From positions 1-64,000 of the forward strand of contig NZ_JACHVA010000082.1 in assembly GCF_014230055.1 (NCBI RefSeq): a stretch of DNA of 64,000 nt, in the 5' to 3' direction. This document shows positions 577 to 20,534 of this stretch, one piece after another. The DNA comes from Puniceicoccus vermicola (GTDB lineage Bacteria; Verrucomicrobiota; Verrucomicrobiia; Opitutales; Puniceicoccaceae). The notes under the pieces are model-generated. The model ran no database searches and had not been told where the DNA came from. It saw only the letters and a list, made by a program, of their open reading frames with translations. Position 1 is the first letter of the stretch. Every line of letters begins with the position of its first letter. Position numbers and translations under genes: made by a program.

Positions 577-651
577 TGGTGCGGGCGGAGGGAGTCGAAC
601 CCTCGTCTCAACCTTGGGAAGGTCACATAATAGCCGTTATACGACGCCCGC
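577..651 (-). tRNA. tRNA-Gly (anticodon CCC), CCA end encoded
   Basis: Read on the minus strand, the acceptor stem GCGGGCG pairs with CGCCCGC, followed by discriminator A and an encoded CCA (579-577). The anticodon loop is TTCCCAA, so the anticodon is CCC (glycine codon GGG). The T loop has the normal TTCGACT. The 5' half (618-651) is supplied by the adjacent prophage, because the same 34 bases recur at 25231-25264. The gene is therefore intact in sequence, but its upstream DNA is now phage DNA. Confidence 0.93.
618..651. other. attL: left attachment core of the prophage
   Basis: This 34-bp segment is the 5' half of tRNA-Gly, from the 5' terminus into the anticodon loop, and it matches 25231-25264 exactly. 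The integrase gene starts 132 bases away. Exact direct repeats flanking an integrase-bearing segment define the crossover region. Confidence 0.9.
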
Positions 652-769: not shown

Positions 770-783
770 CCAGTTTGGGACCA

Positions 784-1974
784 ATGAAAGCGACGATCCC
801 AAAGATTCAGAAGAAGAAATATCCAAGTGGAAAACCATATTGGCTAGTGTCCTTTTCCGCAGATGGGAAGCAAGTCAGAAAAAAGTTCACGGATCAAAAT
901 TCAGCCGATGAATTCAAGCGAAATCAAGTTAGGCGCTATCATGGAGGTCTGAGTTTGGGCGCTCAGGATGAGGCGAGGGAGGGATACGAGATATTTCGGG
1001 CGAAATGGGGGGTTCACCCAAGTTTGGAGAATCTGGGATTTGCCGATTTTGTGCGTCAGGCGCTGGAAACATATCAGCCGCCCAAGGGGGATCTGGAGGA
1101 GATAGTACGGGAATTTCTGAGAATCAAAAAAACTCAGGGGCTAAGAACTATCACTTTGGAGCAAATCGAAAGGTATATGTTCTGCTTCTTGGATGCGTTT
1201 CGAGGTGTAGACCTTGCCCGAATCTCCAAGGCTGATCTTGAGGACTATTTATTTCAGCCAAACGCCGCAGGGAAAAAGAAACCAAATCAGAATGAGATCG
1301 ACACGATACGGAGCTTTTTCAATTGGGCCACGGGCGAATCTCCAAAGACCCCGATTGAGAAACCTATTCTTACAAATAATCCTTTTCGGGGCTGGGTATC
1401 GAGGCGAAAGGACAAAGAAGCCCTGATCGCCGTTCATGACTATGAGGAGTGCCAATTGCTACTTGAGGAGGCGACAAATTGCGGGGGGCAGAAAATGGTT
1501 GCGTGGATGCTTCATACGGGAATGCGGCCAACGGAATCGGTCAAGTTTTGGAAGGTGTACAGCTGGGCGAATATCGACAGAAAAAATGGGCTTATCCATG
1601 TGCCAGGAGCGGTGAGTAAAACAAGGAGGCCCCGCGAGATCGTTATTAGCCCCGCATTAGCGGCATGGTTGGACTTCTACGACGGGGAAAAGTTTTTCAC
1701 GTTTAAAAATGAAAAAACTTGGGCATGGCACTATGTCCAAATCCGAAAGGTTATTCCCGAGAAAAAGCGGGCTAAGGATACGCTGAGGCATACCAAGATA
1801 TCAGTTATGATCCGTGAGGGGGTGCCCATCGATGTTGTTGCAGCGCAAATGGGCAATAGCAGGGAGATTATTCAGAATCATTATTTGCGCCTTATGAGCG
1901 AGGAGGAGGCCGAAAAAATTGCAAACCTCACTCCCGAGCAAGTTCCCGCTCACGATCCCCGCAAGCGGAAATAA
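784..1974 (+). CDS. int: Tyrosine-type site-specific integrase
   Basis: A 396-residue recombinase expected to catalyse integration and excision of the prophage at tRNA-Gly. The N-terminus (about 1-60) is a basic, arm-binding-like domain with a G-K-P-Y-W-L-V-S-F pattern. A SAM-like core-binding domain follows (about 105-200), then the catalytic domain with Arg near 248 (TGMRPTES), Arg335-His336 in TLRHTKIS and the Tyr nucleophile near 367 in NHYLRL. The first residue of the usual HxxR box is Asp rather than His. ATG at 784 is chosen over an in-frame TTG at 775. Its 3' end overlaps the convergent small HTH gene by 25 bases. Confidence 0.93.
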   Translation: MKATIPKIQKKKYPSGKPYWLVSFSADGKQVRKKFTDQNSADEFKRNQVRRYHGGLSLGAQDEAREGYEIFRAKWGVHPSLENLGFADFVRQALETYQPPKGDLEEIVREFLRIKKTQGLRTITLEQIERYMFCFLDAFRGVDLARISKADLEDYLFQPNAAGKKKPNQNEIDTIRSFFNWATGESPKTPIEKPILTNNPFRGWVSRRKDKEALIAVHDYEECQLLLEEATNCGGQKMVAWMLHTGMRPTESVKFWKVYSWANIDRKNGLIHVPGAVSKTRRPREIVISPALAAWLDFYDGEKFFTFKNEKTWAWHYVQIRKVIPEKKRAKDTLRHTKISVMIREGVPIDVVAAQMGNSREIIQNHYLRLMSEEEAEKIANLTPEQVPAHDPRKRK

Positions 1975-2153
1975 CGTTCCAGTTGTCCGGTCTCCCAGCG
2001 TAAGATCTTTCTTCCCGCGCCGATTTGATCTGCCCCAAGGAGGGGTGGGGGAAGCTGGCCACGGCGGCGCATTCGGTCCACCGTTGAAGATGAAACCCCT
2101 AGCATCTGTGCTAGATCATCTTTAGTGAGGAGTTCCATTGCGGATGCGTTCAA
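1950..2153 (-). CDS. AlpA/excisionase-like helix-turn-helix protein
   Basis: A 67-residue protein (62 if the second ATG at 2138 is used) made almost wholly of a MerR-like winged HTH: LTKDDLAQMLGVSSSTVDRM, then a wing with R-R-G-Q-L-P-P-P and R-K-I-L-R-W. This is the architecture of AlpA or phage excisionase proteins, which bend att DNA or regulate int. The position tail-to-tail with the integrase supports such a role. It overlaps the start-side gene (2122-2490) on the same strand, so the two are probably co-translated. Assignment as an excisionase rather than a repressor is inference. Confidence 0.7.
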   Translation of the reverse strand: MNASAMELLTKDDLAQMLGVSSSTVDRMRRRGQLPPPLLGADQIGAGRKILRWETGQLERYFRLRGS

Positions 2154-2490
2154 TTCTTTCCAGTTCTTGTTCGTACGCTGCCTTCTTGGCTATTGTTAGC
2201 TGCTTTTCTTTTTTGATATACTTCAAAAAGCTGTTGTAAATTGTTGAATAAAAATATGATACGGGGTTTTTCCTTGTGTTTATATCAAACTTTTTCGTAG
2301 CTACTGCATTGATACAACGCTCCAGCGCGTATCCCTTCATTTCGTCTAAATACGAATAATCTTTGAAATTCTTCCGGCTCCCAGTCTTTCCAATCAAATC
2401 GGTAATGATGACTCCAAGGCAGGGGGAGAATACGTCATTCTCATAATATCGGCGAAGTTCGCCCAAAAATTCACGGTTTGAGATCCTCAT
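2122..2490 (-). CDS. Phage late sigma factor, T4 gp55-like
   Basis: A 122-residue protein whose middle resembles T4 gp55, the sigma factor for late transcription. Matching elements in order: an N-terminal NREFL helix, SRKNFKDYSYLDEMKGYALE (T4: a KRFNF-GYT-EMIADGIE pattern), a KFD segment, NPVSYFYSTIYNSFLKYIKKE (T4: NPHAYIT-NAF-IKKERK) and a basic tail. Such proteins contact host core RNA polymerase and recognise only a -10-like element (TATAAATA in T4). It overlaps the upstream polymerase gene by 4 bases (ATGA), so both sit in one minus-strand operon. Its likely targets are the GTAAATA boxes before late genes. Based on motif reading, not on a search. Confidence 0.72.
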   Translation of the reverse strand: MRISNREFLGELRRYYENDVFSPCLGVIITDLIGKTGSRKNFKDYSYLDEMKGYALERCINAVATKKFDINTRKNPVSYFYSTIYNSFLKYIKKEKQLTIAKKAAYEQELERIERIRNGTPH

Positions 2491-3587
2491 GAGACTTTTA
2501 GTTGGGGTTCAATACCCGTTGTTTCGAAGCACTCGTTCCAAAGGTATTGAGTGGTTAGGCCGATAGACGAAGATCCAACTCGAATGGAATCATGGATCGT
2601 CAGGCAGGGGATGTTGAGTTGGCGCAATTTCTCGACCACCGAAAAGATTATCTGGGACTCCTTTTTCTGAAGCAGACAGGCGAAATAGCTATTTCCCGTC
2701 TTTTCCTCGCCCTTCCCGTTGGGGTTAGCTTCTTTGAGGTCGAAAATAATTTGCCATAGTTCAGGGAGTTTTTCTTTCAGTTTTTTGCCATAGGAGCCGT
2801 TCATATATTTCGCTGCTCCAAACAGGATAGATCGGTAGGCTTTCTTTTTGACCTCATCCCGAGATTCGTCCTCGCCGAAAATATCAATGTAAAAATCTCC
2901 CTTTTGAATGAGGAGAATATATTTCTCCTTCTCCGTGGAATTCGCCGGATAAAGGGTGGCGAGCAAGTAGGGTTGACAGCAAGCTATGTCTACTTCTTGC
3001 GTCTTTTCGCCCCCGAGAAGGGCTTGTGAGCGGATCGAGGAGGGTTGGAGCGCAAAAGGGTAGTAAAGCCTTCCTGTGGGGCTCAGGGTGTGATCAAAAC
3101 ACTTAGCTAAGGTGTGGTAGTCCTCGCAGTTCAGTTCCAACACGTCCAATGAGCCTAGAACATGCTGGTATCGGGACCGGGTGTCTGGTCCTCGTTTGAC
3201 CTTGCAAGAATAAGCCGCCTTCCGGGATAGGGTTGAAGCGCCCCGCAGTTTTTCGATCTTTTTTGAAATTTTCCCCCTAGGGTCTAGCTCGTGAGGAGCC
3301 ATTTTTGCCGAAGCGTAGGGTTCGCACAGTTCATAATGATAGCATTTTTTTCCTTTTTTGTAGCTTCCATCGTTTTTTATTATCTTATTTTTCTTTAAAT
3401 AGCTCATTGCTGGCCCGTATTGGCGGGTTCCAAGCATTTTAACTAGGGAGGAGCTAGGCAGGTAGACATACTCATTTTTATAAATTCGTTTAAAAAATAG
3501 AATTTGATGAACGACGTAGGCGCAATGGTCAATTAGGCCAGTCGGACAGCCTTCATAGGAAAGGTTTTTTGGTTTTAATAACTTCAT
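2487..3587 (-). CDS. Short family-A-like nucleic-acid polymerase (replication protein)
   Basis: A 366-residue protein with a spaced set of single-subunit polymerase palm motifs. Motif A-like QEVDIACCQPYLLA contains Asp200; motif B-like RDEVKKKAYRSILFG has Arg243, Lys247/248 and Phe256-Gly257; motif C-like IPCLTIHDSI has His332-Asp333-Ser334. A GRLYYPF segment near 172 precedes motif A. These correspond to the D, R-K-YG and HD residues of PolA and T7-like polymerases. Those families are usually 600-900 residues, so this is unusually small and has no visible exonuclease domain. The first 120 residues may be a winged-helix DNA-binding part. It probably replicates or primes the phage genome. DNA versus RNA polymerase cannot be decided here. 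Confidence 0.6.
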   Translation of the reverse strand: MKLLKPKNLSYEGCPTGLIDHCAYVVHQILFFKRIYKNEYVYLPSSSLVKMLGTRQYGPAMSYLKKNKIIKNDGSYKKGKKCYHYELCEPYASAKMAPHELDPRGKISKKIEKLRGASTLSRKAAYSCKVKRGPDTRSRYQHVLGSLDVLELNCEDYHTLAKCFDHTLSPTGRLYYPFALQPSSIRSQALLGGEKTQEVDIACCQPYLLATLYPANSTEKEKYILLIQKGDFYIDIFGEDESRDEVKKKAYRSILFGAAKYMNGSYGKKLKEKLPELWQIIFDLKEANPNGKGEEKTGNSYFACLLQKKESQIIFSVVEKLRQLNIPCLTIHDSIRVGSSSIGLTTQYLWNECFETTGIEPQLKVS

Positions 3588-4077
3588 ACCCGGTATTACA
3601 CTTTTTTAGTGCCTTCGTGACGCAAAATTTGAACTTTTTTCTTCATTTTTCTAATTATCAAGGCGAGGTCCGGATTTTTCATCGATTTTTTGAAGAAATT
3701 TCCATAAATTCTGCAAAGTGTTGATAATTAGCAAAATAAAGAACATTTATTTTTTGAGCGAAAAAGCCCTTATAATTTCGTAAATGCTTAAGCCCAAGGG
3801 CTTTATTCCCGAAGGGAATACAAAATGTCTATTATTATGTTATTGTTAAGTATATATATTTGTACTGTTATAGTATAAGTATTGTTATCATATTATTATA
3901 TTATTAAGTATGTTAGTATTGTTGTTTTGTATTTTTTAAGTAGTAAAAAAGTAGCCGGATTTTCTTTGAGTTATTTAAATTTTACGGAAAAACTGGTCTT
4001 CGATAACAGAAACTCAATTATTTTTAATTATTTTCGGAAATCCCTTCACAAAATTTTTCGTAAGTGTAATAACTTAT
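3588..4077. other. Very AT-rich intergenic region with twin hairpins; candidate origin/control region
   Basis: About 490 bases separate the leftward early operon from the rightward one. Two adjacent hairpins stand out: AAGCCC-AA-GGGCTT at 3790-3803 and TATTCCC-GAA-GGGAATA at 3804-3820. A run made almost only of A and T follows, with ATTATTA and TATTGTT repeats to about 3915. An ORF of 71 codons at 3882-4097 is Ile/Tyr/Leu-rich, as AT-rich noise would be, and is not called. The place between divergent operons beside a polymerase gene suits divergent promoters or a replication origin. Confidence 0.4.
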
Positions 4078-4724: not shown

Positions 4725-5077
4725 GCGAGCTCTACGATCCAATTTTGCAGCTTTTCGAATGGATTGGGGAGAACGAGGGGAAAGAAGTTCCGCTGAGGTT
4801 TGAATGCGTGTGCCAGTTCCTTTTTCCCGCCTTGGCAACCTATGAGTTGGATTTGCCAGCGGAACTGACAGACAAATTCCAGAAAAAATTTAATCTGAAA
4901 AAACGGAAATCCAGGAACAGGACAAAGGAAGCGAGAATTATTCAACTGGTTGGCTTGCTGGATCGGGCTATCCAGAAAAATGAAGGGGAGGTGCCTGAGC
5001 CCGTGTTGACGACGCTAAAGCGATTGTCAGGAGGTAGGAGGCTGAGATGCAGCTATCCGGGTTCCTGCGAGGGGTAA
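4721..5077 (+). CDS. Hypothetical phage early protein (118 aa)
   Basis: ATG 4721 is chosen because GCAGGAGGTCTGAT is a strong ribosome site just before it and the preceding small gene overlaps by ATGA. The open frame extends upstream to 4514, but that stretch is a shadow. The protein is helical and charged, with an acidic first half and a lysine/arginine-rich middle (KKFNLKKRKSRNR). No family was recognised. The stop lies inside the GGGGTAAATA box that precedes the next gene. Confidence 0.65.
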   Translation: MSELYDPILQLFEWIGENEGKEVPLRFECVCQFLFPALATYELDLPAELTDKFQKKFNLKKRKSRNRTKEARIIQLVGLLDRAIQKNEGEVPEPVLTTLKRLSGGRRLRCSYPGSCEG

Positions 5078-5080
5078 ATA
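5073..5080 (+). promoter_or_regulatory. GGTAAATA box, 6 bases before the start at 5087
   Basis: First plus-strand member of a prophage-wide set of (G/A)GTAAATA boxes. It overlaps the stop codon of the previous gene. The spacing suits a T4-late-like -10 element with transcription starting at or near the start codon. Confidence 0.5.
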
Positions 5081-7059: not shown

Positions 7060-7067
7060 GGTAAATA
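7060..7067 (+). promoter_or_regulatory. GGTAAATA box, 7 bases before the small terminase start
   Basis: GGTAAATA followed by GGTTTAC and ATG 7075. It is the only signal seen directly before the packaging operon; no purine-rich ribosome site lies in the usual place. Confidence 0.55.
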
Positions 7068-7074: not shown

Positions 7075-7686
7075 ATGAGTAAACCCCAGAAACTTTCGCA
7101 AAGCCAGATCGCAAGCGCCCTTGGAGTCAGTCGCCAGTATGTCAACAAATTGAAGAAGCAAGGCATGCCTGTTGACAGTGTTGACGCGGCGAAGGCATGG
7201 CGTGATGAAAACTCCCAAAGGGGAACGGGCTTTCGATCCGGGTCCAATACCGATGAAATTTCCATTCCTGAAGACGAATTGGATACTTCGCCTCAAGCCG
7301 CATTGAAACGCGCTGAGGTGGCAGAAGCAAAGATTGGTTGGATTCTGGATTCGGCCATCAAGAAGGGCGACACGGGAAAGATTCAATCCCTTCTGCGTCT
7401 TCACTCCCAAGCAACAGCTTCACTGACAGCGGCAAAAAAGCAATTTCTAGAAATCCAGGAACAGGAATCGCGTCTCATTGGGTTCGAGAAAGTAGCGATA
7501 ATAGCGGAGCAAACCCTTTCAACCCTGATTGTTTTACTTGATGCATTGCCAGACGAATCAGCCGCGTTGATCGCTCCAGACGAACCGGAACCCGTTCGGA
7601 AGGTCATTGCCGATAAGGTCTCGAAGCTCAAAAAGACGATTCGCGCTCAACTGGAAGAAGTGGGGAAGGGGGAACCCGAAGATTAA
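7075..7686 (+). CDS. Terminase small subunit-like DNA-packaging protein (Nu1-type HTH)
   Basis: A 203-residue protein. The N-terminus is a helix-turn-helix (LSQSQIASALGVSRQYVNKL, about 7-26) followed by a short wing with K-A-W-R, the layout of lambda Nu1-like and HTH-bearing small terminases. The rest is long helices (about 78-195) with an acidic end, suited to oligomerisation and contact with the large subunit. It is directly upstream of the large terminase, whose frame begins within its 3' end. It should recognise the packaging site of the phage DNA. Confidence 0.72.
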   Translation: MSKPQKLSQSQIASALGVSRQYVNKLKKQGMPVDSVDAAKAWRDENSQRGTGFRSGSNTDEISIPEDELDTSPQAALKRAEVAEAKIGWILDSAIKKGDTGKIQSLLRLHSQATASLTAAKKQFLEIQEQESRLIGFEKVAIIAEQTLSTLIVLLDALPDESAALIAPDEPEPVRKVIADKVSKLKKTIRAQLEEVGKGEPED

Positions 7687-9535
7687 TCCAGCCGCTTCGA
7701 TCTTTGCGCGATACTTTGAAGAACCAGAAATAATCCAACCTTCGGAATTCGCCGATAAGTATTTGTATCTTGCAGGACCGCAAGAACGCCAACAGGGGAA
7801 GCTCAGTTTAGATTTTTCTCCCTACTTGCGGGGAATGCTGGATCTAGCCGCTGATCCCCAATACCGCGAAACATGGGCTGTATGCGGTTCCCAGATTGGG
7901 AAGACCCTATTTTTGCGCGTTCTGATGGCTTATTATGCCTATTTCTACGGCGGGCCGCAACTAACTGTTTTTCCTACCCTGCAAAATGCGTTGGAATTCT
8001 CCGAGCACCGTTGGCAAACGCTCGTTGAAGCTTCGCCGGTTCTTCGTGAGCTAGTTCCCGAAGCCCGTTCAGATTATAAAAAGCTTTCCCAGATTCTAGG
8101 AAGGGCAAAGATCAATTTTACGGGTGGGGGCTCATCTGCGAATCTCCGTTCCCTTTCAATTCGTTGGCTGTTTCTGGATGAAATAGAAGCTTTTTCAGAT
8201 GGCTTCAGTCTGGAGAAAGAAGGGGAAACCACACCGCTTGAACTAATCCGTGATCGTGTTAAAGCCTTTGGGAACTTCGCGAAGCAGTTCTACGCGAGCA
8301 CCCCAAAAACGGACGATGGCCCAAGTTGGAGGGGTTATTGCCGGGGAACACAGCACCAATATTTTGTTTCTTCTCCCTATGCGCTCGATGAAGAAAAATT
8401 TCTGTTGGAAACTCCAATGGTTAAATGCGATCCCCGCGCAAAGGTCGAAAACGGTTATGATTGGAAGCGGTTGAAGGAAAATAACGCCGTCTGGATTGAA
8501 TGCCCCTATACGAAAAAGCCGATCTATAGCGCCCAAAGAAACGAAATGCTTCACGGTGGGGAATGGAGGCAGACGAATCCTGACGCGGAACCAGATATTC
8601 TTTCTTTGAATATTTCTTCGCTGTATTCGCCGACAGTTTCCCTCAACAGCTACTTCATCAAGTTTTTGAAGGGGCAGGACAGCCCAGCGGCCATGCAAGC
8701 TTTCTGTAACGGGTATGAAGCGCAACCTTTCAGCTTAGACTATAAATCTCAGCGAAAAGAAGAAATCCAGAATTGTATTCTTCCGTATTCGAGGGGTGAA
8801 CACGAAGACGCGAAGTACAGAATTATCACGATAGATGTTCAGAAGGATTGGTTCTATTTCGTCTGCCGTGGCTATGGCCGAAACGGATCTTACCTGTTGG
8901 ATTATGGGAAGCTCTATACCCATGCGGATATAGATGATTTGATAGAAAAGTATCAGCCGATCATGACGGGCATAGACAACAACTATGCTCAACGATCCAA
9001 TGAGATGAACAAATTCGTCTATGATCGAATCTCCAAGGGGCGAAAGATTTGTACGCTCAGGGGTTGGGAGTCGATCAAGTCAGGGAAACCTTTCGAGGAA
9101 AAATATCTGAATCCGTTCGTCGGCACCTCAAAGCAGAAATGGACGAAGAAGATTCTGAATATTTGGATCAACAACGATATTTGGAAATCTGAGGTCCACA
9201 ATGCCAGAAGCGGAAACAGCAACCGTTGGTTTGTGTTTGATGGGGTAGGAGACGATTACGTTGACATGTTGTTTGCTGAGTCTCCGCGTGAGATATTCGA
9301 CAAGAACGGAAAGAAAAAAATCGTTTGGAAGCAGCGTCGAAAACGAAACGAAGCCTTCGACGTGGAGTGCTACAATGCGGCATTAGCCCTTTACTGTGGG
9401 GTTGAGAAGACGATTCAGCGGGAAATTACCTTGGCGAAATCTCAGGAGCCCGAAGAAATTTTAGAATCCGTTCCCGAGCCGGAACCGAAGAAAAAGATCA
9501 CCCTGCCGCCGCTCGTTGGAGCTGGTAAATACTGA
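7607..9535 (+). CDS. Terminase large subunit, lambda gpA type
   Basis: The DNA-packaging motor ATPase and nuclease. Walker A is GSQIGKT near residue 93; Walker B is WLFLDEIEAF near 187-196. The early FADKYLYLAGPQERQQGKLS and the C-terminal IITIDVQKDWFYFVCRGYG strand (nuclease acidic residues) fit the gpA (GpA_ATPase plus GpA_nuclease) family at its usual length of about 600-640. The start is uncertain: the frame opens with TTG at 7607, overlapping the small subunit by 80 bases. A start nearer 7682, after AGGGGGAACCCGAAG, would need a rare ATT codon. It ends in the GGTAAATACTGA box of the next gene. Confidence 0.92.
   Translation: MPIRSRSSKRRFALNWKKWGRGNPKINPAASIFARYFEEPEIIQPSEFADKYLYLAGPQERQQGKLSLDFSPYLRGMLDLAADPQYRETWAVCGSQIGKTLFLRVLMAYYAYFYGGPQLTVFPTLQNALEFSEHRWQTLVEASPVLRELVPEARSDYKKLSQILGRAKINFTGGGSSANLRSLSIRWLFLDEIEAFSDGFSLEKEGETTPLELIRDRVKAFGNFAKQFYASTPKTDDGPSWRGYCRGTQHQYFVSSPYALDEEKFLLETPMVKCDPRAKVENGYDWKRLKENNAVWIECPYTKKPIYSAQRNEMLHGGEWRQTNPDAEPDILSLNISSLYSPTVSLNSYFIKFLKGQDSPAAMQAFCNGYEAQPFSLDYKSQRKEEIQNCILPYSRGEHEDAKYRIITIDVQKDWFYFVCRGYGRNGSYLLDYGKLYTHADIDDLIEKYQPIMTGIDNNYAQRSNEMNKFVYDRISKGRKICTLRGWESIKSGKPFEEKYLNPFVGTSKQKWTKKILNIWINNDIWKSEVHNARSGNSNRWFVFDGVGDDYVDMLFAESPREIFDKNGKKKIVWKQRRKRNEAFDVECYNAALALYCGVEKTIQREITLAKSQEPEEILESVPEPEPKKKITLPPLVGAGKY
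9524..9531 (+). promoter_or_regulatory. GGTAAATA box, 5 bases before the start at 9537
   Basis: It is embedded in the last codons of the large terminase gene and is followed by CTGAC and ATG 9537. It decides the start of the next gene over an in-frame TTG at 9516. Confidence 0.55.
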
Positions 9536-9536
9536 C

Positions 9537-10319
9537 ATGCTCGAATTTGAAAAAATAGATATGTCCCAGTTTAATCGCTATGCGAAGGACTTGGCAGCGC
9601 GTTTGAATGTCGAGATTCCAGACGCAATCAAGGCTGAGGCAGCTTCTGTTTTGAAGGTCGCAGGGGGAATGCAGTTTCGAGAATCCGCAAAACCAAAGCA
9701 GATTCGAACAGATACCCGTTGGCGCGAAATGAAAAGTCTGGAATCCGATGGGCTCAAAATCACGGCTTCGAAGAAGAATGGCAAAATCTGGGGGAGTATG
9801 GACAAGATTAATTGGATCCTTCTTGGTCATCATTCCTTGGAGAAGAATTTTAAATTCTCAAAAGACGGGCACAAAATCGCCAAGAAGGATTGGCAACGAT
9901 TCTGGAAGCTGTGGCAGTCAAGTAGCAAAGATACCCGCGAAAAGATTCGGAAGGCGCTCGGATCAAGGGGGCTTGGTGCAAAGTCGTGGTTTGATCTTGT
10001 CGAGTTGCTGGGATTTGACGCTGAAAGCTTGTCGCCGAAGCAGCGCGGAGTTTCCAAGGCACTAGACGCCAAAACCCGCAAAGGAAGCAATCCCCCGCGA
10101 ATGGGATTCGTCTATGACTCAGGGCAAAACGGAAAATATAAGCTCACCGTTGGAAATACGTCTGTAATTGCCGTGAATCAGAAGGGAAAAAACCATATTC
10201 AGGCAGCTATCAGAAGGCGGGCCGCTGCATTCAGAAACAACGTAAAGAACGATATTTTTAAAGACGCTGATCAGGTCGCGGCGCGTTATCCTGGTATCCG
10301 GTCCCGCTTGTCTCCCTAG
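9537..10319 (+). CDS. Hypothetical phage head-region protein (260 aa)
   Basis: ATG 9537 is chosen because the GGTAAATA box lies 5 bases upstream. The protein is basic, helical at the N-terminus (residues 1-45) and Lys-rich in the middle. Its C-terminal part (about 190-260) has alternating strands and an R-R-R-A-A-A-F helix. It resembles tail or morphogenesis proteins that ride between terminase and portal genes, but no family was recognised. Confidence 0.6.
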   Translation: MLEFEKIDMSQFNRYAKDLAARLNVEIPDAIKAEAASVLKVAGGMQFRESAKPKQIRTDTRWREMKSLESDGLKITASKKNGKIWGSMDKINWILLGHHSLEKNFKFSKDGHKIAKKDWQRFWKLWQSSSKDTREKIRKALGSRGLGAKSWFDLVELLGFDAESLSPKQRGVSKALDAKTRKGSNPPRMGFVYDSGQNGKYKLTVGNTSVIAVNQKGKNHIQAAIRRRAAAFRNNVKNDIFKDADQVAARYPGIRSRLSP

Positions 10320-10320
10320 C

Positions 10321-10328
10321 GGTAAATA
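10321..10328 (+). promoter_or_regulatory. GGTAAATA box, 5 bases before the start at 10334
   Basis: It lies wholly in the 14-base gap after the preceding stop, so it cannot be explained as coding sequence. It is followed by GGGGT and ATG. Confidence 0.6.
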
Positions 10329-10333
10329 GGGGT

Positions 10334-10600
10334 ATGGATATATCCCAAATCGAAGAATTACTAGCGGAGATCGAAGAAGAAATTACGCTCATCAAGCGCA
10401 GGTTCAATATTGCCCATTCGCTGGGGGATTCAAACAGCGCCAAGGGCATTTCAGCTACCTTTTCTGATCAGCAATTTTGGCGTAAGGAGCTTCAGAAGCT
10501 TCGAGCACGAAAACGCTACTATACCCAACTTAAAGCTTTCAGGGAGGGTGCAGGACCAGCGCCGTTTAACCCATCAACCCTTTCAACCAACATCGTATGA
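10334..10600 (+). CDS. Small head-tail joining (gpW-like) candidate
   Basis: An 88-residue helical protein with an acidic first helix (IEELLAEIEEEITLIKRRF) and a second Arg/Lys/Tyr-rich helix (FWRKELQKLRARKRYYTQL). A small helical protein between the large terminase and the portal matches the place of lambda gpW. The sequence match is not strong enough to be sure. Its stop overlaps the portal start by 4 bases (ATGA). Confidence 0.5.
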   Translation: MDISQIEELLAEIEEEITLIKRRFNIAHSLGDSNSAKGISATFSDQQFWRKELQKLRARKRYYTQLKAFREGAGPAPFNPSTLSTNIV

Positions 10601-12039
10601 AGGGGCTAGTTTTAGATCAGTTCGGCAAAACGGCTTCGTTTTCGCGCATCAACCCTGTTCAGCCTTCGTATGACAATGCGTTTAGGGGCGGATATCATCC
10701 ATACACGGATACGGAGCAATTTCCATATAACAACCGAATCAAGGTAATCTCCTATCTTCGCGAGGAAGCAAAGACCAATGCCATCCTGGCAGGTATTATC
10801 AATGCTTGGGTGAATACTGTTGGGGTTCCCGCCTTTAAATCAGTGTCTTCGAGCAAGGAATACAATGAGGAGAAGGAAGAATTTTTGGAATCCAGATTTT
10901 CTAACCTTTGCAAAACCTACGATTTCAGAACCTTTGTTCGCCTAATCTGCAATGAGTATGTTCTGACGGGAGAAGTATTCGTGTATTTCTTGAAGGATGG
11001 GCACGTAAAATTGCTTCCAGCGGAACTTATCGGATCAGACCCGAAAAACGAAGATCCCAACGAAGTAGATGGAATAATCTTTTCTGCGAACGGCTATGTT
11101 GAGGGTTACAGGCTTGGAAAGCGTATCAAAAACAAGATTTCATTCTCGAAAGAAGATTCTCAGGTCATTCCGGCCAACTTCGTGAATCATCTTTGCCGAA
11201 GAACGCGAATCGAACAGGTGCGCGGCGATATACCTATGATGCCCGCGATTCAGGCAATTCAAGACCTTTCGGAAATTACGAAAGCAAAGGTCAAAAGCAT
11301 CAAGATTCAGTCATCCCTTTCCTACGCGATCATCAAGAACAATGCTCAGGAGTATATTGAGATGCTCCAAGCCGCTGTTTCTGAAGGTTCGGTAGATGCC
11401 CAAGATGCTTTGAATTGGACTACAGCGCGTTCCAGCTACTCCAGAAATGCAGTTCAGGACATTGAGCGCGGTTCGATGCTGTATCTTGAGAACGGAGAAG
11501 ACGCCAAACCGCTTTCTACGAACTTCCAATCTGGTGATTTTTCGGCATTCGAACTGATGACCATCAAGCGGATCTGTGGGACTATAGCAGTTCCGCAGCA
11601 AGAAATACTTGGGTATGACCAAAGCAATTATTCTTCTTCCCGCGCTGAAAAACTGAAGTTCGCCGCATTCGTCAAAGAATTCCGCAAGGATGCAGTTCAA
11701 ACGATTCTTCTTCCCCTTCAATCATGGCTGGTTCGTAGGGCAGTATTGTTTGGAGACTTCATTGCCGGACCAGAAGGTGAGGATAATAAGGTAGAATATA
11801 TCTTTCCCGCCTTTGCCACAATCGACGAGAACAAGGCAGTTCAAGCTGCTTCTGAACGATTGGCTGAAGGATTGACTTCGAAATCGCAGGAAATCGCGGC
11901 CATTGGAGGCCAAGCTGATCAGGTTCTTCGGGATCGCATTCAGTATGCCGCGAAACAAGCCCAGTTGATCAAGGAAATGGCAGTGGAATCCGGTCTGACG
12001 GAAGAAGAAATCAGAACCGAGTTGGAGGCGGGTAAATAG
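10597..12039 (+). CDS. Portal protein, lambda gpB-like family
   Basis: A 480-residue portal subunit forming the DNA channel at the capsid vertex. Features seen: NNAWVNTVGVPAF-like early segment (INAWVNTVG), a wing region with VLTGEVFVYFLKDG, and the conserved LCRRTRIEQVRGDIPMMPAI block, corresponding to the R-x-x-Q-x-RGxP signature of lambda-type portals. SNYSSSRAEKLKFA follows near 345. Length and order (terminase, small protein, portal, protease) fit a lambda-like head module. The stop is inside the next GGTAAATAG box. Confidence 0.92.
   Translation: MKGLVLDQFGKTASFSRINPVQPSYDNAFRGGYHPYTDTEQFPYNNRIKVISYLREEAKTNAILAGIINAWVNTVGVPAFKSVSSSKEYNEEKEEFLESRFSNLCKTYDFRTFVRLICNEYVLTGEVFVYFLKDGHVKLLPAELIGSDPKNEDPNEVDGIIFSANGYVEGYRLGKRIKNKISFSKEDSQVIPANFVNHLCRRTRIEQVRGDIPMMPAIQAIQDLSEITKAKVKSIKIQSSLSYAIIKNNAQEYIEMLQAAVSEGSVDAQDALNWTTARSSYSRNAVQDIERGSMLYLENGEDAKPLSTNFQSGDFSAFELMTIKRICGTIAVPQQEILGYDQSNYSSSRAEKLKFAAFVKEFRKDAVQTILLPLQSWLVRRAVLFGDFIAGPEGEDNKVEYIFPAFATIDENKAVQAASERLAEGLTSKSQEIAAIGGQADQVLRDRIQYAAKQAQLIKEMAVESGLTEEEIRTELEAGK
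12031..12038 (+). promoter_or_regulatory. GGTAAATA box, 6 bases before ATG 12045
   Basis: It overlaps the portal stop (TAG 12037-12039). With this box the ATG at 12045 has the common spacing of 6, whereas the GTG at 12039 would touch the box. Confidence 0.55.
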
Positions 12040-12044
12040 TGCAA

Positions 12045-12971
12045 ATGAATAGCTTCAAATTTGAAAAAACGGTCGAAGATACCCGCATCGACAAGGAGAA
12101 CGGTATTTTAAAAGGAGTTACCCTGATGCAGGTTGGCGAAGCCAAAGGGCATGGGGTGAGAATTACCAAGAAAACCTTCGGCAAAGACTGGATTGGAAAA
12201 AGTTACAAATGCTTTATCTCCCATGACGAAATTTCCCGCGATGTGACCGAGTGTATTGGTGTTTGCTACGGGCTTCGGCTCGAAGAAGACGGGACGAAGC
12301 TCCGCGCTGATTTCAAATTCTTAGATTCTTTCAAACTTAACCACAAAGGGGACTATGAAACGCTATTGGAACTTGCTGAAACCGCACCTGAGCTATTGGG
12401 CATTAGCCTTACTACAAAAGGATCTTTACAAGAAGAAGATGGGGAAGACCTTCCTTTCTTTATTCTGGAGGAAATCTACTCCGCTGATTTTGTCGGGCAT
12501 CCGGCAGCGACTACGACCCTTTTCGAAGAAGGCAAAGAAGATGATCCAGAATCTGAAGATAAGCCTTCTTCTGAAGAAAAAGAAGATCCCGAGCCCGATG
12601 AAGCGGAAAAGGAAGTGGAAGTAGAAATTCTTCCCCGAGTAGAAGCCCTTGAAGCGCAAATTGCTGAAATTCTAGAAAAGCTCGATTCCTTGCAATCTGA
12701 GAAGGAAGACGCCGAAACCGCCAAGGAAGAAGCCGAAAAGAAAACCGAGGAACTTACCGAGGAGAACAAAGAACTAGCCGAAGCCGTGAATAAAGCCAAG
12801 AAGCTGGCAGAAATTGGAGGCGATGAAGTGACCTTCGGTGAGAAACCCAGCGGAAAAGAAGGCGAGGATCTTCGAAAGCAGATGAACGCAATTCCTGACT
12901 TTGCCGAACGTTTGAAGTTTTTCCGTGAACACAAAGCGGAACTGAAGAAGTTTGAATCGGGTAGGGGGTAA
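12045..12971 (+). CDS. Prohead protease fused to scaffold-like coiled coil
   Basis: A 308-residue protein in two parts. Residues 1 to about 165 look like a prohead protease domain: KGHGVRITKKTF, then CFISHDEISRDVTECIG with a candidate catalytic His, and EIYSADFVGHPAATTTLF, the serine/PA block of U35-type proteases. From about 170 to 290 it is almost all Glu, Asp, Lys and Ala with heptad-like spacing, a typical scaffold coiled coil. The end FAERLKFFREHKAELKKF may bind capsid. One gene would thus supply both scaffold and maturation protease. Confidence 0.75.
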   Translation: MNSFKFEKTVEDTRIDKENGILKGVTLMQVGEAKGHGVRITKKTFGKDWIGKSYKCFISHDEISRDVTECIGVCYGLRLEEDGTKLRADFKFLDSFKLNHKGDYETLLELAETAPELLGISLTTKGSLQEEDGEDLPFFILEEIYSADFVGHPAATTTLFEEGKEDDPESEDKPSSEEKEDPEPDEAEKEVEVEILPRVEALEAQIAEILEKLDSLQSEKEDAETAKEEAEKKTEELTEENKELAEAVNKAKKLAEIGGDEVTFGEKPSGKEGEDLRKQMNAIPDFAERLKFFREHKAELKKFESGRG

Positions 12972-12974
12972 ATA
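12967..12974 (+). promoter_or_regulatory. GGTAAATA box, 8 bases before the capsid gene start
   Basis: It overlaps the TAA stop of the protease-scaffold gene (12969-12971). It is followed by GTAGCACT and ATG 12983, with no purine-rich ribosome site between. Confidence 0.6.
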
Positions 12975-12982
12975 GTAGCACT

Positions 12983-13807
12983 ATGGCAAATACTTTTTAC
13001 ACTAATACCGAGTTCTTCGATAAAGGCTTATCCGCTTTCGCAGGGGAGATGAGCTTCATTGAAGGATTTTCTACGAAATTTGAAGTTTCTGACATTGCTG
13101 GTTCCAGCGTGTCCGTTCCCCTTATCGACGCAGGTTCTGCCGGAGTCTTTTCCGGTGTGTATCAAAACGATTCTGATACTATGACGGAAATTGATGTTGG
13201 GGTTACCCACGTTTACAAGAAGTTCTCGGTGAACGTAACCGAAGCTTCTACCAACGCCGCTGCTACCCTTGAGAATCTTTACGTTTCCAATATGCGTAGT
13301 TTTGCCGCGAAAGTCTCAGAAACGATCTTGGCTGATGTTGCAAATTACACTGATGCAGTGACGGGGCTTTCTGTTGGATCTTTCGATTTCGACGACGTTA
13401 AGTCCGCAAGTATTGAGTTGGATGATAATGGGGTTCCTATGGCGAACAGGAGCCTTGTTCTCAGCCCTTCGTTCAATACTGCCCTGCTTCCTTCAACCAG
13501 TGATAATCTAAAGCTCACCCCTGAAGACTATGGCTTTGCTTCATACCGCAATGCGTATCTCCCAAGTGGAGTTCACGGGATCGCGACTCACGCGGGATCT
13601 TATGCCTGTGCCGTTGCCCTTCCAAAGAATCCGCTGATTGGTAGTTCTGCATTGATCGACCATGAAGTAATTATTGAACCCACCCTTGGAATTCCGGTTC
13701 AAATGCTTGTTTATGGCGAACCGAACGGCGGAAAAATCAGCGCAGTTTTTGAAGCCCTTGTAGGTGGAAAAGTCGCTCAAGACAAAGGCGTGAAACTTAC
13801 CGCTTAA
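12983..13807 (+). CDS. Major capsid protein
   Basis: A 274-residue protein directly after the protease-scaffold. It is rich in Ser, Ala, Val and Gly with alternating strands, lacks cysteine-rich or catalytic motifs, and has P-x-x-L-I-G-S-S and GIPVQMLVYGEPNGG near the end, as in HK97-fold coats. The length is normal for a small HK97-type capsid without a long delta domain. Identification rests mainly on order and composition. Confidence 0.78.
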   Translation: MANTFYTNTEFFDKGLSAFAGEMSFIEGFSTKFEVSDIAGSSVSVPLIDAGSAGVFSGVYQNDSDTMTEIDVGVTHVYKKFSVNVTEASTNAAATLENLYVSNMRSFAAKVSETILADVANYTDAVTGLSVGSFDFDDVKSASIELDDNGVPMANRSLVLSPSFNTALLPSTSDNLKLTPEDYGFASYRNAYLPSGVHGIATHAGSYACAVALPKNPLIGSSALIDHEVIIEPTLGIPVQMLVYGEPNGGKISAVFEALVGGKVAQDKGVKLTA

Positions 13808-13877
13808 ACCTAACCTTAACTAATCTCATGAAAGATCCTGCCTCGTTCTGGGGTGGGATTTTTCTTCTTGGAAATGG

Positions 13878-13885
13878 GGTAAATA
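13878..13885 (+). promoter_or_regulatory. GGTAAATA box, 5 bases before GTG 13891
   Basis: It lies inside an ORF that opens at ATG 13828. Followed by ACTAC and GTG, it has the standard spacing and marks GTG 13891 as the likely true start. Confidence 0.5.
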
Positions 13886-13890
13886 ACTAC

Positions 13891-14217
13891 GTGAGCTTTC
13901 CTATCTATGCCGCCGATATTCGGAAGGAACAATTTGTTCTGAATCTTTCCTACAAGCCAACTGACGCAATCTTTCGAGGGGAAGAAGTTTCAGTGCGCAT
14001 AGATGAGCCTTCGTTTTCCAAAAAACTTCAAACCTACGGATATGAGGGCATCTCGGAAGAAATTGAATGCATGATCTTTACGACCGGCGTTCGGCCAGAA
14101 AGTAGGGAGGATACCCTAACGATTGGAGGGATCGGGTATGACATTAGCGAAGTCAGCGATGATCCCGGTTCAGGCTGTTACAACCTGACATTGCGCAAAA
14201 GAAGGGCGGTAAAATAG
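13891..14217 (+). CDS. Head-tail connector-like protein
   Basis: A 108-residue strand-rich protein. The start at GTG 13891 is preferred because a GGTAAATA box lies 5 bases upstream. ATG 13828 in the same frame would add 21 residues but has no ribosome site. Its position after the capsid and before a tail-terminator-like gene fits head completion or head-tail joining. The end FTTGVRPESREDTLTIGGIG recalls head-tail adaptor proteins, but the family is not certain. Confidence 0.55.
   Translation: MSFPIYAADIRKEQFVLNLSYKPTDAIFRGEEVSVRIDEPSFSKKLQTYGYEGISEEIECMIFTTGVRPESREDTLTIGGIGYDISEVSDDPGSGCYNLTLRKRRAVK
14208..14216 (+). promoter_or_regulatory. Variant box GGTAAAATA touching GTG 14217
   Basis: It has one extra A compared with the other boxes and no spacer before the GTG start, and it overlaps the preceding TAG stop. 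It is the weakest member of the set. Confidence 0.35.
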
Positions 14218-14735
14218 TGGCTGCATACAATACAGAATTTCTAGCGAAGGTTTTTAACTTTCAGGAAAACTTTGAGAATTCTTTCGCTGACTATTTTGAC
14301 GGGCTAGACGGGCTAAGATGCTTCACAACCTTTGCGGATGAGGAATTGCCGGAAAACTTTCTTGCGGTTCAGTTCGCGTTGGGTGGGGCCAATGGAGGGG
14401 AATCTACGGCGTTGCTGAACTACGACAACGGCCAATTAGAAGAAGATATCTTCAATGGGGAACTTACGGTTCAGATTGTTACGCGCAGAAATGATGCGGA
14501 AGACCTGAATGAAAACCCTTTACCTTCGATCATACGCTTTCATTCGCAATTGCGGGCAAAGGTTATGGCTAGAATGCTTCGCGGCCAGCTTCACGGGGTG
14601 AATCTCCCTTCCTTCTATTCGATTGTGACGCTGAATCATGCGGGGGTTGGCGTATCCATCGAAGAAGACAATTGGGTAGATATCAGCGCGGTCCAATATA
14701 ACCTTCAGTTCCAGATTCGCCAATGGGACGAGTAG
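14217..14735 (+). CDS. Tail terminator/completion-like protein
   Basis: A 172-residue protein starting with GTG that overlaps the previous stop by one base. It has an alpha-beta layout with FNGELTVQIVTRRN and a helix RFHSQLRAKVMARMLRG, ending in strands (YNLQFQIRQWDE). Size, place and fold pattern recall phage tail terminators. Its last 13 bases overlap the next gene. Confidence 0.5.
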   Translation: MAAYNTEFLAKVFNFQENFENSFADYFDGLDGLRCFTTFADEELPENFLAVQFALGGANGGESTALLNYDNGQLEEDIFNGELTVQIVTRRNDAEDLNENPLPSIIRFHSQLRAKVMARMLRGQLHGVNLPSFYSIVTLNHAGVGVSIEEDNWVDISAVQYNLQFQIRQWDE

Positions 14736-15298
14736 GTTTCCAGAATTACAGCCGATCCCGTCAAATTCCGGGGACTTGGCGCACAGAACAGATTCTGAAT
14801 GACACAGTGTATTTTGTTGAATCTGAGGAGATTCGAAGGGGCATTGAAGATTTCTTTGTTCTTCTCGAAAAGCTGAAGGTTGACGGAAAATATTTCATGC
14901 CTTTACCCCTTTGGTTTGAGTTTGAAGGCCGAAAGCTAACAGTTTGGGGAGGATTTAAAACAGACTATGCGTCTATACCCCGTGGTTTGTGGTTCCTTCT
15001 AGCGCCAAGGCAGATTCGTAGGGCGGCAATTCTCCATGATGCGGGATATCGAATACTGGGATTTTTGCGTGATCAAAAAATAATCACAAATAGGCAGTTT
15101 TCTATTTTTCGCGAAACCTTCGATGATCTTTTCTTCGAGGCAATGGGCCATGTGGACCCATCGATTTCGGCCTTTAAACGTTGTGCCGCCTTTCGCTCCG
15201 TTCGGGCCTTCGGTTGGATGCGAGGCGCGGGACTGAATGACGCAACGATTATCCAGAATAATTTTCCGGTAGTGGATCGTATAATTTCTCCGTTCTGA
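14723..15298 (+). CDS. DUF1353 family protein
   Basis: A 191-residue protein with the DUF1353 signature: WGGFKTDYASIPRGLWFLL, RRAAILHDAGYR, and a later FDDLFFEAMG followed by the SVRAFGWMRG helix. The conserved Asp (KTDYAS) and His-Asp (LHD) pair could bind metal. DUF1353 proteins occur in phage and plasmid genomes with unknown role, sometimes near lysis or tail genes. Here it interrupts the head-tail gene run and overlaps the preceding gene by 13 bases. Confidence 0.78.
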   Translation: MGRVGFQNYSRSRQIPGTWRTEQILNDTVYFVESEEIRRGIEDFFVLLEKLKVDGKYFMPLPLWFEFEGRKLTVWGGFKTDYASIPRGLWFLLAPRQIRRAAILHDAGYRILGFLRDQKIITNRQFSIFRETFDDLFFEAMGHVDPSISAFKRCAAFRSVRAFGWMRGAGLNDATIIQNNFPVVDRIISPF

Positions 15299-15316
15299 AA
15301 GTCTATTCAGTGGCGG

Positions 15317-15324
15317 GGTAAATA
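15317..15324 (+). promoter_or_regulatory. GGTAAATA box, 8 bases before the start at 15333
   Basis: It lies in a 34-base non-coding gap. It is followed by AGGGTATT and ATG. Part of the gap (AGGG) could also act as a weak ribosome site. Confidence 0.55.
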
Positions 15325-15332
15325 AGGGTATT

Positions 15333-15677
15333 ATGACCTATAATCCCGAAAGCGCTATCGTCCATACATCTCCCTTGGTTGTGGATACTGATTCCTACGT
15401 TGTAACTGATTTCTCCTACGACCTTGGGGCTCAAGTTATCCCCATTAAAGATTCTACAGATAAGGTTACTTCCTATTATATTGATGAAACCAACGAAAAC
15501 GCTGGTTCCATCACGATTGAACTGAAAGACGGTGAAACCGGAATTTTCGCGATAGGCGACGAATTTACCTATGAATCGAAAGATTGGATTGTAGCTGGCC
15601 ACGGCCAATCAAGAAGCCGAGGTTCCCAAGCTACTGCTACCTACACAATCAACGAAAAAATCTACAGTGCTTCATAG
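15333..15677 (+). CDS. Probable small tail-tube-type structural protein
   Basis: A 114-residue, acidic, strand-rich protein with many Thr, Ser, Tyr and Asp and no Cys. It lies just upstream of a chaperone-like gene and the tape measure, where the major tail protein usually sits. It is shorter than most tail-tube subunits (130-250), so the assignment rests on position and strand pattern only. Confidence 0.5.
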   Translation: MTYNPESAIVHTSPLVVDTDSYVVTDFSYDLGAQVIPIKDSTDKVTSYYIDETNENAGSITIELKDGETGIFAIGDEFTYESKDWIVAGHGQSRSRGSQATATYTINEKIYSAS

Positions 15678-16305
15678 GTCCTATACTGAAATCCCAGGAT
15701 TTCAGGAGGATTACCAAGAAGCCCAAGAAAAGCAGCGACTACAGCGCGATTCGTCCTTTTTCTCAGAAGTCCCCCTAGAAATTCTAAGGGGGATTTTTGT
15801 TTCTCCGCTGACCCTTCGAAAGGTCACGTTGCTCCAAATTGTGGGCAATCCGTATATTTGTGGCGGTCCTGTTACGCGGGAAGATTCCATTTCGTTTTTA
15901 TGGATAATTTCCAGCGAGCACGTTCCCAACAATCCGCGATTAAAAAAGGAATTCTTCAAGAAGACCCGTTCTCATTCATCTGAGACTTTGGACGGCGCAA
16001 TCTGCCAGTATTTGGAAGATCAATGGATGGAACTTGAGGATTCCGCGCCTTCGGATTCGAAAGGAGTCAGACGTTCCATTCCGCTTGATCAAGCTTCGAC
16101 CGCCGCTTCCTACGTGCATCTACTCGCAAGCAAGTATGGTTGGGGGGAGCAATACATTCTGAATATGCCGATTTCCCGAATTCTTCAGTATCGGAACCTA
16201 ATTATTTCGGAGATCGATCCACAGCACAAACCCGCAAGTTTGGCGATGAATGTAATTCGGGAATACAATGAGCGATTCAGTCGGATGCTGAAAGAAAGTA
16301 AATAG
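15667..16305 (+). CDS. Tail assembly chaperone-like protein
   Basis: A 212-residue helical protein starting with GTG 15667, overlapping the upstream gene by 11 bases. It has SPLTLRKVTLLQIVGNPYICG near 45 and a C-terminal block YGWGEQYILNMPISRILQYR, like the short motif (W-x-x-x-x-I-x-x-x-P-x-x-R) of tail-assembly proteins placed before tape measures. No slippery site for a frameshifted product was obvious. Confidence 0.55.
   Translation: MLHRSYTEIPGFQEDYQEAQEKQRLQRDSSFFSEVPLEILRGIFVSPLTLRKVTLLQIVGNPYICGGPVTREDSISFLWIISSEHVPNNPRLKKEFFKKTRSHSSETLDGAICQYLEDQWMELEDSAPSDSKGVRRSIPLDQASTAASYVHLLASKYGWGEQYILNMPISRILQYRNLIISEIDPQHKPASLAMNVIREYNERFSRMLKESK
16297..16304 (+). promoter_or_regulatory. AGTAAATA box, 5 bases before the tape-measure start
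   Basis: It encodes the last codons and stop (AAA TAG) of the upstream gene. GTTTC and ATG 16310 follow. Confidence 0.5.
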
Positions 16306-16309
16306 TTTC

Positions 16310-18037
16310 ATGCTGAAGAATGCGATAACTATGTATTTCGGAGCCGATACAAAAGGAGTCGAAACCAAGATGGGGAAACTCAAAAGTTCCATCAAATCTT
16401 TTGCTGTATCTATGGGCCTAGTTTTATCGGTCGCCTCAGTCAAAAAGTATATCGATCACCTGACCGAGTTGGGCGAAACCGCGCAAACCCTCAACATGAA
16501 CGTGGAGGAGTATCAGCGTTACATTTATGCGGCAAAACAGTCAGGTGTTGAAACCGCTGCTTTGAATGACGGCCTTCTTGAGATGCAAAAAAGGTTTGGT
16601 GAAGCCATGGAGGGAACGGGCCAGATGTATGAGGTCATGAAAAAGTACAATCTTTCCATGGAGGATTCTGAGGGAAAATTGAAAACCAATGATCAGCTTT
16701 TGGGCGAACTTGCTGATCTATATTCTTCGCTACCCAATTCGATTGAAAAGGCTCGAATGGCTGATCAGGCATTTGGCGGATCTGCAAAGGAAATGGTTCG
16801 TCTACTAGATGAAGGGGCCGAAGGGTTTGCCCGTTTGAAAAAGGAAGCGGACGAATACGGCGCGATTGTAGAAGAAAGGGTGATTCGAGCCGCTGAAGAA
16901 ACTAGCTACAAACTAGAAAAGGCAATGTCTCGAATTGGAGCGTTTGGAACGAGTATCGCGTCGGGTGTATATGACGCCATGGACGCTACTGGAAACGCGG
17001 TTGGGTCTTTCTTCTATGGAACTGAGGCCGCAGCTGATGCTTATAACGAATCCCAGTCCCAAATGGAGGAGGCGATTACCAAAAAGCAGCAAGCCGAAGC
17101 CAAAAAACGCCAAGCTCAGTTTGAGGCCGCGCAGGAAAAACGCCGCAAAACCATCGAAGAAGCCAATCAGAAGATTTTGGATTTGGAGGAAGATTTTCGC
17201 TTCAACCAACTTTCTGCCATAGGTCAGCTACTCCAGAAGGAGAAGGAACTAGCCAAACTTCGCGGAGAATACGTCACAGGGCGCGTACAGGGCGATTTCT
17301 CCGAGCTTGAGGGGCTGGATAAGAAAAAGGAGATAGCATCCCTAGAAATCGATGTGGCAAAACGCCGCGCCGAAATCGATAAGGCCGCCGCAGCGGAGCA
17401 AATGCGTTGGGAGGAGAAGAAAGCCAAAATGCTCCGAGATCATGAGTTTTCGCAAATGAAAACGACTCAGGAAAAGATCGATTTTTTGCAGGCTGAAATG
17501 AACGCCATTGAGAAAAAGGCGACCAAGGAAAAACTATCATACATTGAGCGCGAAAAATGGCTCACGAAGGCCATTGAAGTTGAGGATCTACTTGCTGAAA
17601 AGAAGCAGAAGATCCGAGACGACGAACAAGATGCAGTCGATAAGCGGAAAGAAACCGAGGAGGATATTCTAGATTTGCGCAAGAAAGCAGCAAATATCAA
17701 AAGCTCAGATTCAGGGTCAGATTACGAAGGGCGCGGCCAAGCTTCCTTATCCGAACTGGTTGCCGGAACTCGCGGTTCATCCAATGATCAGCGCAAAGCC
17801 CGAAGGGTACAAAGGTTTGAGGAGCGAGCGAAGGAAGCGGCAGACCGAGGCAACTACGAAAAGCGAGATGAATTGTTCGGTAAAGCCGACAAGCTCCGTT
17901 CCGAAATTGGAAACCTCAAAGAATCAGACCGGATTCTCCGCAAGCAGGAAGAACTCCAAAAAAAGCAGTTCGAGGAACTGGAGGAGATCAAAAAACAAAT
18001 TACGAAACTAAACGAGGACTTAGCAGATGAATCCTAA
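16310..18037 (+). CDS. Tail tape measure protein
   Basis: A 575-residue protein. The first 220 residues have the tape-measure pattern: MGKLKSSIKSF, a hydrophobic helix (FAVSMGLVLSVASVKKYI), LGETAQTLNMNVEEYQRYIY, QKRFGEAMEGTG and ADQAFGGSAKEMVRLLDEGA. Then come long, highly charged coiled coils (about 240-470 and 520-575). At roughly 1.5 angstrom per residue, 575 residues would set a short tail of about 85 nm. It implies a siphovirus-like morphology. Confidence 0.85.
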   Translation: MLKNAITMYFGADTKGVETKMGKLKSSIKSFAVSMGLVLSVASVKKYIDHLTELGETAQTLNMNVEEYQRYIYAAKQSGVETAALNDGLLEMQKRFGEAMEGTGQMYEVMKKYNLSMEDSEGKLKTNDQLLGELADLYSSLPNSIEKARMADQAFGGSAKEMVRLLDEGAEGFARLKKEADEYGAIVEERVIRAAEETSYKLEKAMSRIGAFGTSIASGVYDAMDATGNAVGSFFYGTEAAADAYNESQSQMEEAITKKQQAEAKKRQAQFEAAQEKRRKTIEEANQKILDLEEDFRFNQLSAIGQLLQKEKELAKLRGEYVTGRVQGDFSELEGLDKKKEIASLEIDVAKRRAEIDKAAAAEQMRWEEKKAKMLRDHEFSQMKTTQEKIDFLQAEMNAIEKKATKEKLSYIEREKWLTKAIEVEDLLAEKKQKIRDDEQDAVDKRKETEEDILDLRKKAANIKSSDSGSDYEGRGQASLSELVAGTRGSSNDQRKARRVQRFEERAKEAADRGNYEKRDELFGKADKLRSEIGNLKESDRILRKQEELQKKQFEELEEIKKQITKLNEDLADES

Positions 18038-18893: not shown

Positions 18894-18896
18894 CGG

Positions 18897-20533: not shown

Positions 20534-20534
20534 T

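Follow-up and report, generated by a model that had tools for sequence, protein, structure and literature searches.

A verrucomicrobial genome carries an integrated temperate phage of about 24.6 kb that probably uses a minimal sigma factor of the T4 gp55 type as its late-gene switch, a reading to which we assign a probability of about 0.7. The 122-aa factor is firmly established as a gp55 homolog in both sequence and fold; its gene overlaps those of a polymerase on one side and an excisionase (xis)-like protein on the other, within a prophage whose borders are marked by a repeat, and a series of boxes containing the core of known gp55 promoters precedes the late genes. Known from large lytic T4-type phages, gp55 is the classic example of a system in which a sliding clamp ties late transcription to replication. 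Here, the window is the whole stretch of 64,000 nucleotides that was analysed.

The sigma factor, its operon and the prophage

The gp55-like gene (2122..2490, minus strand, ATG start) is present in a single copy in its own genome. The core patterns quoted for its product in the initial annotation are all found in the ORF, as SRKNFKDYSYLDEM, NPVSYF and KKEK, and a profile search yields matches to gp55 families in PHROG far above chance (phrog_234, ‘late sigma transcription factor’, E 6.8e-15; phrog_12791, E 3.7e-10). The T4 gp55 sequence of PDB 7d7c matches the protein at E 6e-4 (phmmer, single sequence), and the sole Pfam match, to Sigma70_r2, is below threshold. The AlphaFold2 model (mean pLDDT 94.2, input alignment of 30 gp55s) consists of four helices, 5-18, 23-37, 48-64 and 76-118, for which T4 gp55 (7d7c) is the top PDB match in Foldseek (rmsd 1.6 Å over 109 columns, TMq 0.76), with region 2 of other sigmas ranked below, and VIA gives Z 14.8 for gp55 versus at most 11.0 for other structures; the model leans toward gp55 because gp55s were in the prediction alignment, whereas the sequence match does not depend on the prediction. 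With a significant profile match and a predicted fold like sigma region 2, the outcome that the initial annotation had named as refuting its reading did not occur.

In T4 gp55, helix 4 is followed by helix 5 (the helix-loop-helix, which holds template DNA) and then by the clamp-binding C-terminus (PMC7892883, the source also for the roles of the T4 residues given below). Both the second helix of the helix-loop-helix and the clamp-binding C-terminus are absent from the 122-aa sigma, in the model and in the alignment, respectively. T4 residues E70, E77, N13, R57, F86 and Y97 are retained in the alignment as E50, E57, N5, R39, F68 and Y79, R114 is replaced by K96, and in place of D74, L54, H95 and T99 the sigma has Y54, T36, V77 and Y81, respectively. 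Thus, of the acidic residues for the beta'-clamp helices, E50 and E57 are present and D74 is Y54, with positions 74 and 77 also varying among other gp55 homologs; RpoC of the host is intact, its clamp-helix region included. In the -10 pocket, N, R, F and Y are retained together with the changes L54T, H95V and T99Y, the last at a position occupied by T or S in 29 of the 29 other alignment rows.

The prophage is bordered by a 34-bp exact direct repeat, the left copy of which (618..651) lies inside a tRNA-Gly(CCC) gene and the right copy at 25231..25264. Within these borders are a tyrosine integrase (775..1974, plus strand; PHROG integrase E 7e-31, Pfam PF00589 above cut-off) and terminase, portal, major head and tape measure genes, which bears out the 24.6-kb prophage delineated earlier. 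Together, the profile, fold and att sites support the initial view that a small temperate element with an integrase carries a gp55-like late sigma. The host belongs to the Verrucomicrobiota, its RpoB being 78% identical to the RpoB of a Verrucomicrobia MAG. No other T4 core gene was found near the gp55-like gene among the main ORFs (PHROG). It is the 5' half of the tRNA-Gly gene (577-651) that the att repeat occupies, and the prophage is located on the 5' side of that gene, the less usual one. A tRNA-like sequence at 24223-24295 (minus strand) is a weak tRNA-Sec match (30.4 bits, below the family cut-off) and is not called by ARAGORN.

Upstream, the start of the gp55-like gene lies on the stop of a 366-aa polymerase gene (2487..3587, minus strand) in an ATGA overlap. 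At its other end, the gp55-like gene contains the ATG of a gene for a 62-aa excisionase/AlpA-like HTH protein (1950..2138, minus strand; Pfam HTH_17 PF12728, 34.6 bits against a cut-off of 27), the two genes overlapping by 17 nt. Judged from alignments and a structural model, the 366-aa protein qualifies as a family-A DNA polymerase, with a palm/fingers portion that includes motifs A (EVDIACCQP), B (K..AYRSILFG) and C (TIHDSI). Its model matches the T7, Taq and Bst DNA polymerases (Foldseek E 5e-5 to 8e-4, VIA Z up to 11.8), residues 94-182 being weakly modelled. A single-subunit RNA polymerase, considered in view of the HDS in motif C, was dropped: DNA polymerases are the best fold match, although residues 94-182 of the model are poor. 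The polymerase is very small, without room for an exonuclease domain, and falls in phrog_4756, a PHROG family without an assigned function. Its relatives (L018 6869-8071, L019 3166-4440, L102 9833-11062 and L104 9836-11074) are encoded both by other genomes from the order of the host and by viral contigs as long as 436 kb.

This leftward polymerase-gp55-xis operon is separated from the rightward genes by an AT-rich non-coding stretch (3588..4077; GC 0.38 over 3001-4000), a putative control region. The packaging, head and tail genes, with PHROG matches for terminase, portal, major head, tail chaperone and tape measure, occupy 7075..24018 on the plus strand.

Boxes in front of the late genes

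The sequence RGTAAATA precedes 11 start codons at a distance of 5-8 nt; all of these are rightward, and 10 lie in the structural region. In the form GGTAAATA, on the plus strand like all the others, it is found at 5073..5080 (6 nt before ATG 5087 of the SegE-like GIY-YIG gene), 7060..7067 (7 nt before ATG 7075, small terminase), 9524..9531 (5 nt before ATG 9537), 10321..10328 (5 nt before ATG 10334), 12031..12038 (6 nt before ATG 12045), 12967..12974 (8 nt before ATG 12983, major head protein), 13878..13885 (5 nt before GTG 13891, the proposed head-closure start), 15317..15324 (8 nt before ATG 15333) and 18897..18904 (6 nt before GTG 18911, a tail protein with YadA-head repeats). The form AGTAAATA is found at 16297..16304, 5 nt before ATG 16310 of the tape measure gene, and at 22307..22314, 5 nt before ATG 22320. 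Two further boxes, TGTAAATA, are at 20482..20489, with no clear start codon at the site, and at 22627..22634, with 92 nt between the end of the box and ATG 22727. The gene at 14217 is preceded by the variant GGTAAAATA. The box at 13878 suggests that the head-closure gene (ORF 13828-14217, plus strand) begins at GTG 13891 rather than at ATG 13828. The SegE-like endonuclease (5087-5431, plus strand), which bears one of the boxes, is a T4-type protein.

GTAAATA is the top enriched heptamer of the region 6911-24018, with 12 copies seen against 0.47 expected and one on the other strand. Its z score of 13.2 compares with at most 8.0 for any heptamer across 100 simulated regions, and in 1000 Markov simulations there were never more than three copies. 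Of the 19 genome-wide occurrences of the pattern RGTAAATAN{5,8}RTG, 11 fall within the 24.6 kb of the prophage and the remaining 5.18 Mb accounts for 8. The late switch proposed in the initial annotation receives support from this prophage-specific series of TAAATA-type boxes before late genes, a feature absent from that annotation.

The T4 late promoter is TATAAATA at -13 to -6 (PMC1524935), that of Aeh1 is CTAAATA from -12 (PMC1524935), and that of cyanophages is NATAAATA (PMC2984593). The last six bases of RGTAAATA (TAAATA) are the same as those of TATAAATA, whereas TA at -13/-12 is replaced by RG, which puts G at -12. Exact TATAAATA is found nowhere in the window, where RGTAAATA is found instead; its absence, taken at one point as evidence against late promoters, was dropped as such once the late-gene upstream sequences revealed GTAAATA. 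Promoters of the sigma70 consensus are at shuffle level. In T4, T99 touches A-8 and L54 belongs to the -12 pocket (PMC7892883). The box retains A-8 although the equivalent of T99 is Y, and the -12 pocket residue L54 is T in the 122-aa sigma; by this comparison, the changed pocket residues do not simply predict the sequence of the box.

By the T4 rule, transcription starts 12 nt after the G; this position was set in advance and the bases there were inspected after the boxes had been found. The +1 so placed falls 0-3 nt before the start codon, from which leaderless or nearly leaderless late mRNAs are predicted, and the base at +1 is A at 10 of the 11 start-linked sites. At the six start-linked sites where the start codon lies elsewhere, +1 is A in all six and -1 is a pyrimidine in five. 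Among 81 gp55-bearing viral loci, TATAAATA is mostly 15-29 nt before starts and therefore leaves room for a leader; single near-leaderless TAAATA sites occur in T4-type contigs too, so the short spacing alone is not unique. Taken together, these features make it likely that the gp55-like sigma reads the RGTAAATA boxes and probable that the late mRNAs are leaderless or nearly so, and the late region as a whole is thought to be under box control.

The clamp and alternative readings

As the initial annotation had it, no gp33 or clamp gene is recognised in the element. For the sliding clamp, there is no PHROG match among the main ORFs, several proteins being without a family, and for gp33, no match better than E 0.56 was obtained with single-sequence phmmer, the weak matches being dismissed. 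The gp33 protein is short and poorly conserved, so that such a search is a weak test for a divergent member. The T4 clamp-binding C-terminal motif has no counterpart in the alignment, where the 122-aa sigma ends 26 residues after KEK. In a relative prophage, L112, the ORF 5752-6828 (plus strand) is, by eye, a candidate DnaN-type clamp.

In T4, the clamp arm of gp55 is partly dispensable and that of gp33 is essential for clamp activation (PMC2988020, PMC7892883), so loss of the gp55 arm alone is not proof of clamp-independence. On the other hand, gp55 is known to direct basal transcription in vitro with neither gp33 nor gp45 present, and truncating its C-terminus leaves this activity equal to that of the full protein (PMC2988020, PMC7892883), which makes a clamp-free system biochemically possible. 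Clamp-independence of the 122-aa sigma is a plausible inference. The full form of this idea, namely a self-sufficient sigma consisting of region 2 only that, free of clamp and gp33, would alone drive leaderless promoters abutting the start codons, and would be timed by its operon with the polymerase and excisionase instead of by the clamp, is more tentative, with somewhat less than an even chance in our estimate.

The clamp-free part is also all that is contradicted by a rival under which the boxes are gp55-type promoters whose activation needs a diverged, unrecognised gp33 together with the host DnaN clamp. The host clamp could indeed serve, no family is assigned to several small proteins (5442-6910, late region), and it is the gp33 arm, not that of gp55, that is essential in T4 (PMC2988020). 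Given, however, that neither gp33 nor a clamp is recognised in the element and that the sigma has no clamp-binding C-terminus, we regard this arrangement as possible but doubtful.

A different rival denies the boxes to the sigma altogether: GTAAATA would be a translation-initiation element replacing Shine-Dalgarno, and the gp55-like protein would read other sites. A ribosome-binding element would indeed stand 5-8 nt from the start codon, as the boxes do, and the genes that overlap their upstream neighbour and could be translated by coupling (portal at 10597, and those at 14723, 15667, 18027 and 21697) have no box. However, in the host comparison set (350 ORFs in ~423 kb, complemented by the genome-wide pattern search), only two of the 350 ORFs have TAAATA at the start. 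In relative prophages, found by terminase similarity and none with a gp55 hit, the box series is absent, including in one of the same genus, and orthologous genes in L112 and L114 carry other upstream sequences. Because neither host genes nor these gp55-less prophages use the box, host ribosomes do not generally need it. Furthermore, the box is missing from all nine ORFs that are early, leftward or at a border, although the early genes of this phage are likewise without an obvious Shine-Dalgarno; the A 12 nt after the G is kept even when the start codon is 1-3 nt further on; and the TAAATA core is that of known gp55 promoters. A role in translation instead of transcription is thus unlikely. 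At its late-gene starts, one of the relative prophages without gp55 (L112/L145, genome G091) carries a different repeated element next to the start, GGGTTGACG...ATATATGG, in four copies.

More improbable still is that the gp55-like gene was acquired as a passenger from a T4-type phage, with the boxes being recognised by some other regulator of the phage or by a host sigma. The tree branch of the sigma (P0001) is long (3.14) and its place uncertain, a placement that we do not trust since long branches meet there, and the presence of the SegE-like endonuclease makes gene exchange with T4-type phages plausible. Nevertheless, the gene is intact, is joined to the polymerase and xis-like genes by stop/start overlaps and retains the core residues, and the box agrees with what the gp55 family reads. 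That the region is an assembly artefact fusing a T4-type phage to a host contig, conceivable in principle for a draft genome of 143 contigs, is barely credible considering the exact att repeats at a tRNA gene, the continuous contig of 191,858 bases, the lack of other T4 core genes nearby and the spread of the boxes across the whole late region.

Relatives, known systems and the proposed late programme

Matches to the gp55-like protein number 1,623 in tblastn among 50,697 phage records, all below 60% identity, and in 60 rows sampled evenly down this ranking, all phages exceed 130 kb but for one 7.9-kb record. Relatives in viral contigs are mostly T4-type with gp47, which is present in 72 of the 81 viral gp55 loci within the stretch examined. 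No close relatives were detected in 372 genomes of the order, 384 of the class and 387 of the phylum (overlapping samples), in plasmids, or in a genome collection searched, weakly, with a degenerate query; a query for the full gp55 family found no conserved stretch. The evidence for sigma plus boxes thus comes from one genome, no close relative having been found in which both are conserved together. In the open literature, we found no earlier report of gp55 in temperate or small phages.

A second case of gp55 outside the T4 arrangement is the IMG/VR contig L026 (6039 bases), in which a gp55-like gene directly follows the terminase and portal genes. Its AATAAATA boxes are 26-30 nt before the small-terminase and portal starts, a leadered distance. 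The L026 portal has no match among GenBank phages, and the relatives sought for its context comprise only L147, 46% identical.

With T4 gp55 and its T4-type homologs (phrog_234, 7d7c), the 122-aa sigma shares the region-2 fold and the TAAATA promoter core, and its core-binding and -10-reading residues are largely those of T4 apart from the changes given above. It differs in length (122 versus 185 aa in T4), in lacking the second helix and the clamp-binding C-terminus, in the size of the carrier (a 24.6-kb temperate element as opposed to phages well over 100 kb) and in its neighbours, polymerase and xis-like genes instead of gp47/gp46. Compared with the T4 gp55, gp33 and gp45 system as a whole, a gp55-type sigma and the late promoter core are common to both, whereas gp33, gp45 and the gp55 clamp-binding motif are not recognised here and the boxes abut the start codons. 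Aeromonas phage Aeh1 likewise combines a diverged sigma with TAAATA in which -12 is changed from A, but is a 233-kb T4-type phage with C at that position where G is found here (PMC1524935). A -10 element next to the start codon and leaderless mRNA, as predicted here, are also described for Deinococcus-Thermus (PMC12340547); there, the -10 is a host promoter element, in contrast to the phage-specific box.

For the proposed late switch, we envisage the following course. Upon induction, the leftward operon would be expressed and polymerase, sigma and excisionase would be made together, a co-expression that would link excision, replication and late transcription. The sigma would dock on the beta' clamp helices of the host RNA polymerase and open DNA at the RGTAAATA boxes, with transcription beginning 12 nt after the G, such that most late genes, or gene pairs in which the second gene overlaps the first, would obtain their own leaderless or nearly leaderless mRNA. 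Because the clamp-binding tail is absent and gp33 and a phage clamp are not recognised, the sigma may act without clamp activation, in the manner of the basal gp55 holoenzyme in vitro.

A minimal protein, a defined set of 11-13 promoters predicted together with their +1 bases, and altered pocket residues (L54T, H95V, T99Y) beside an altered -12 base are all open to direct test in vitro; a further prediction is that the late programme of this phage consists of mRNAs with almost no leader. These observations suggest that the late switch of T4 can do without the T4 replication machinery, its usual driver. Should a 122-aa gp55 function in a 24.6-kb temperate phage without the clamp tail, gp33 and gp45, the sigma-and-box part of the system would be separable from the clamp part, and it would then become possible to ask which of the two came first.
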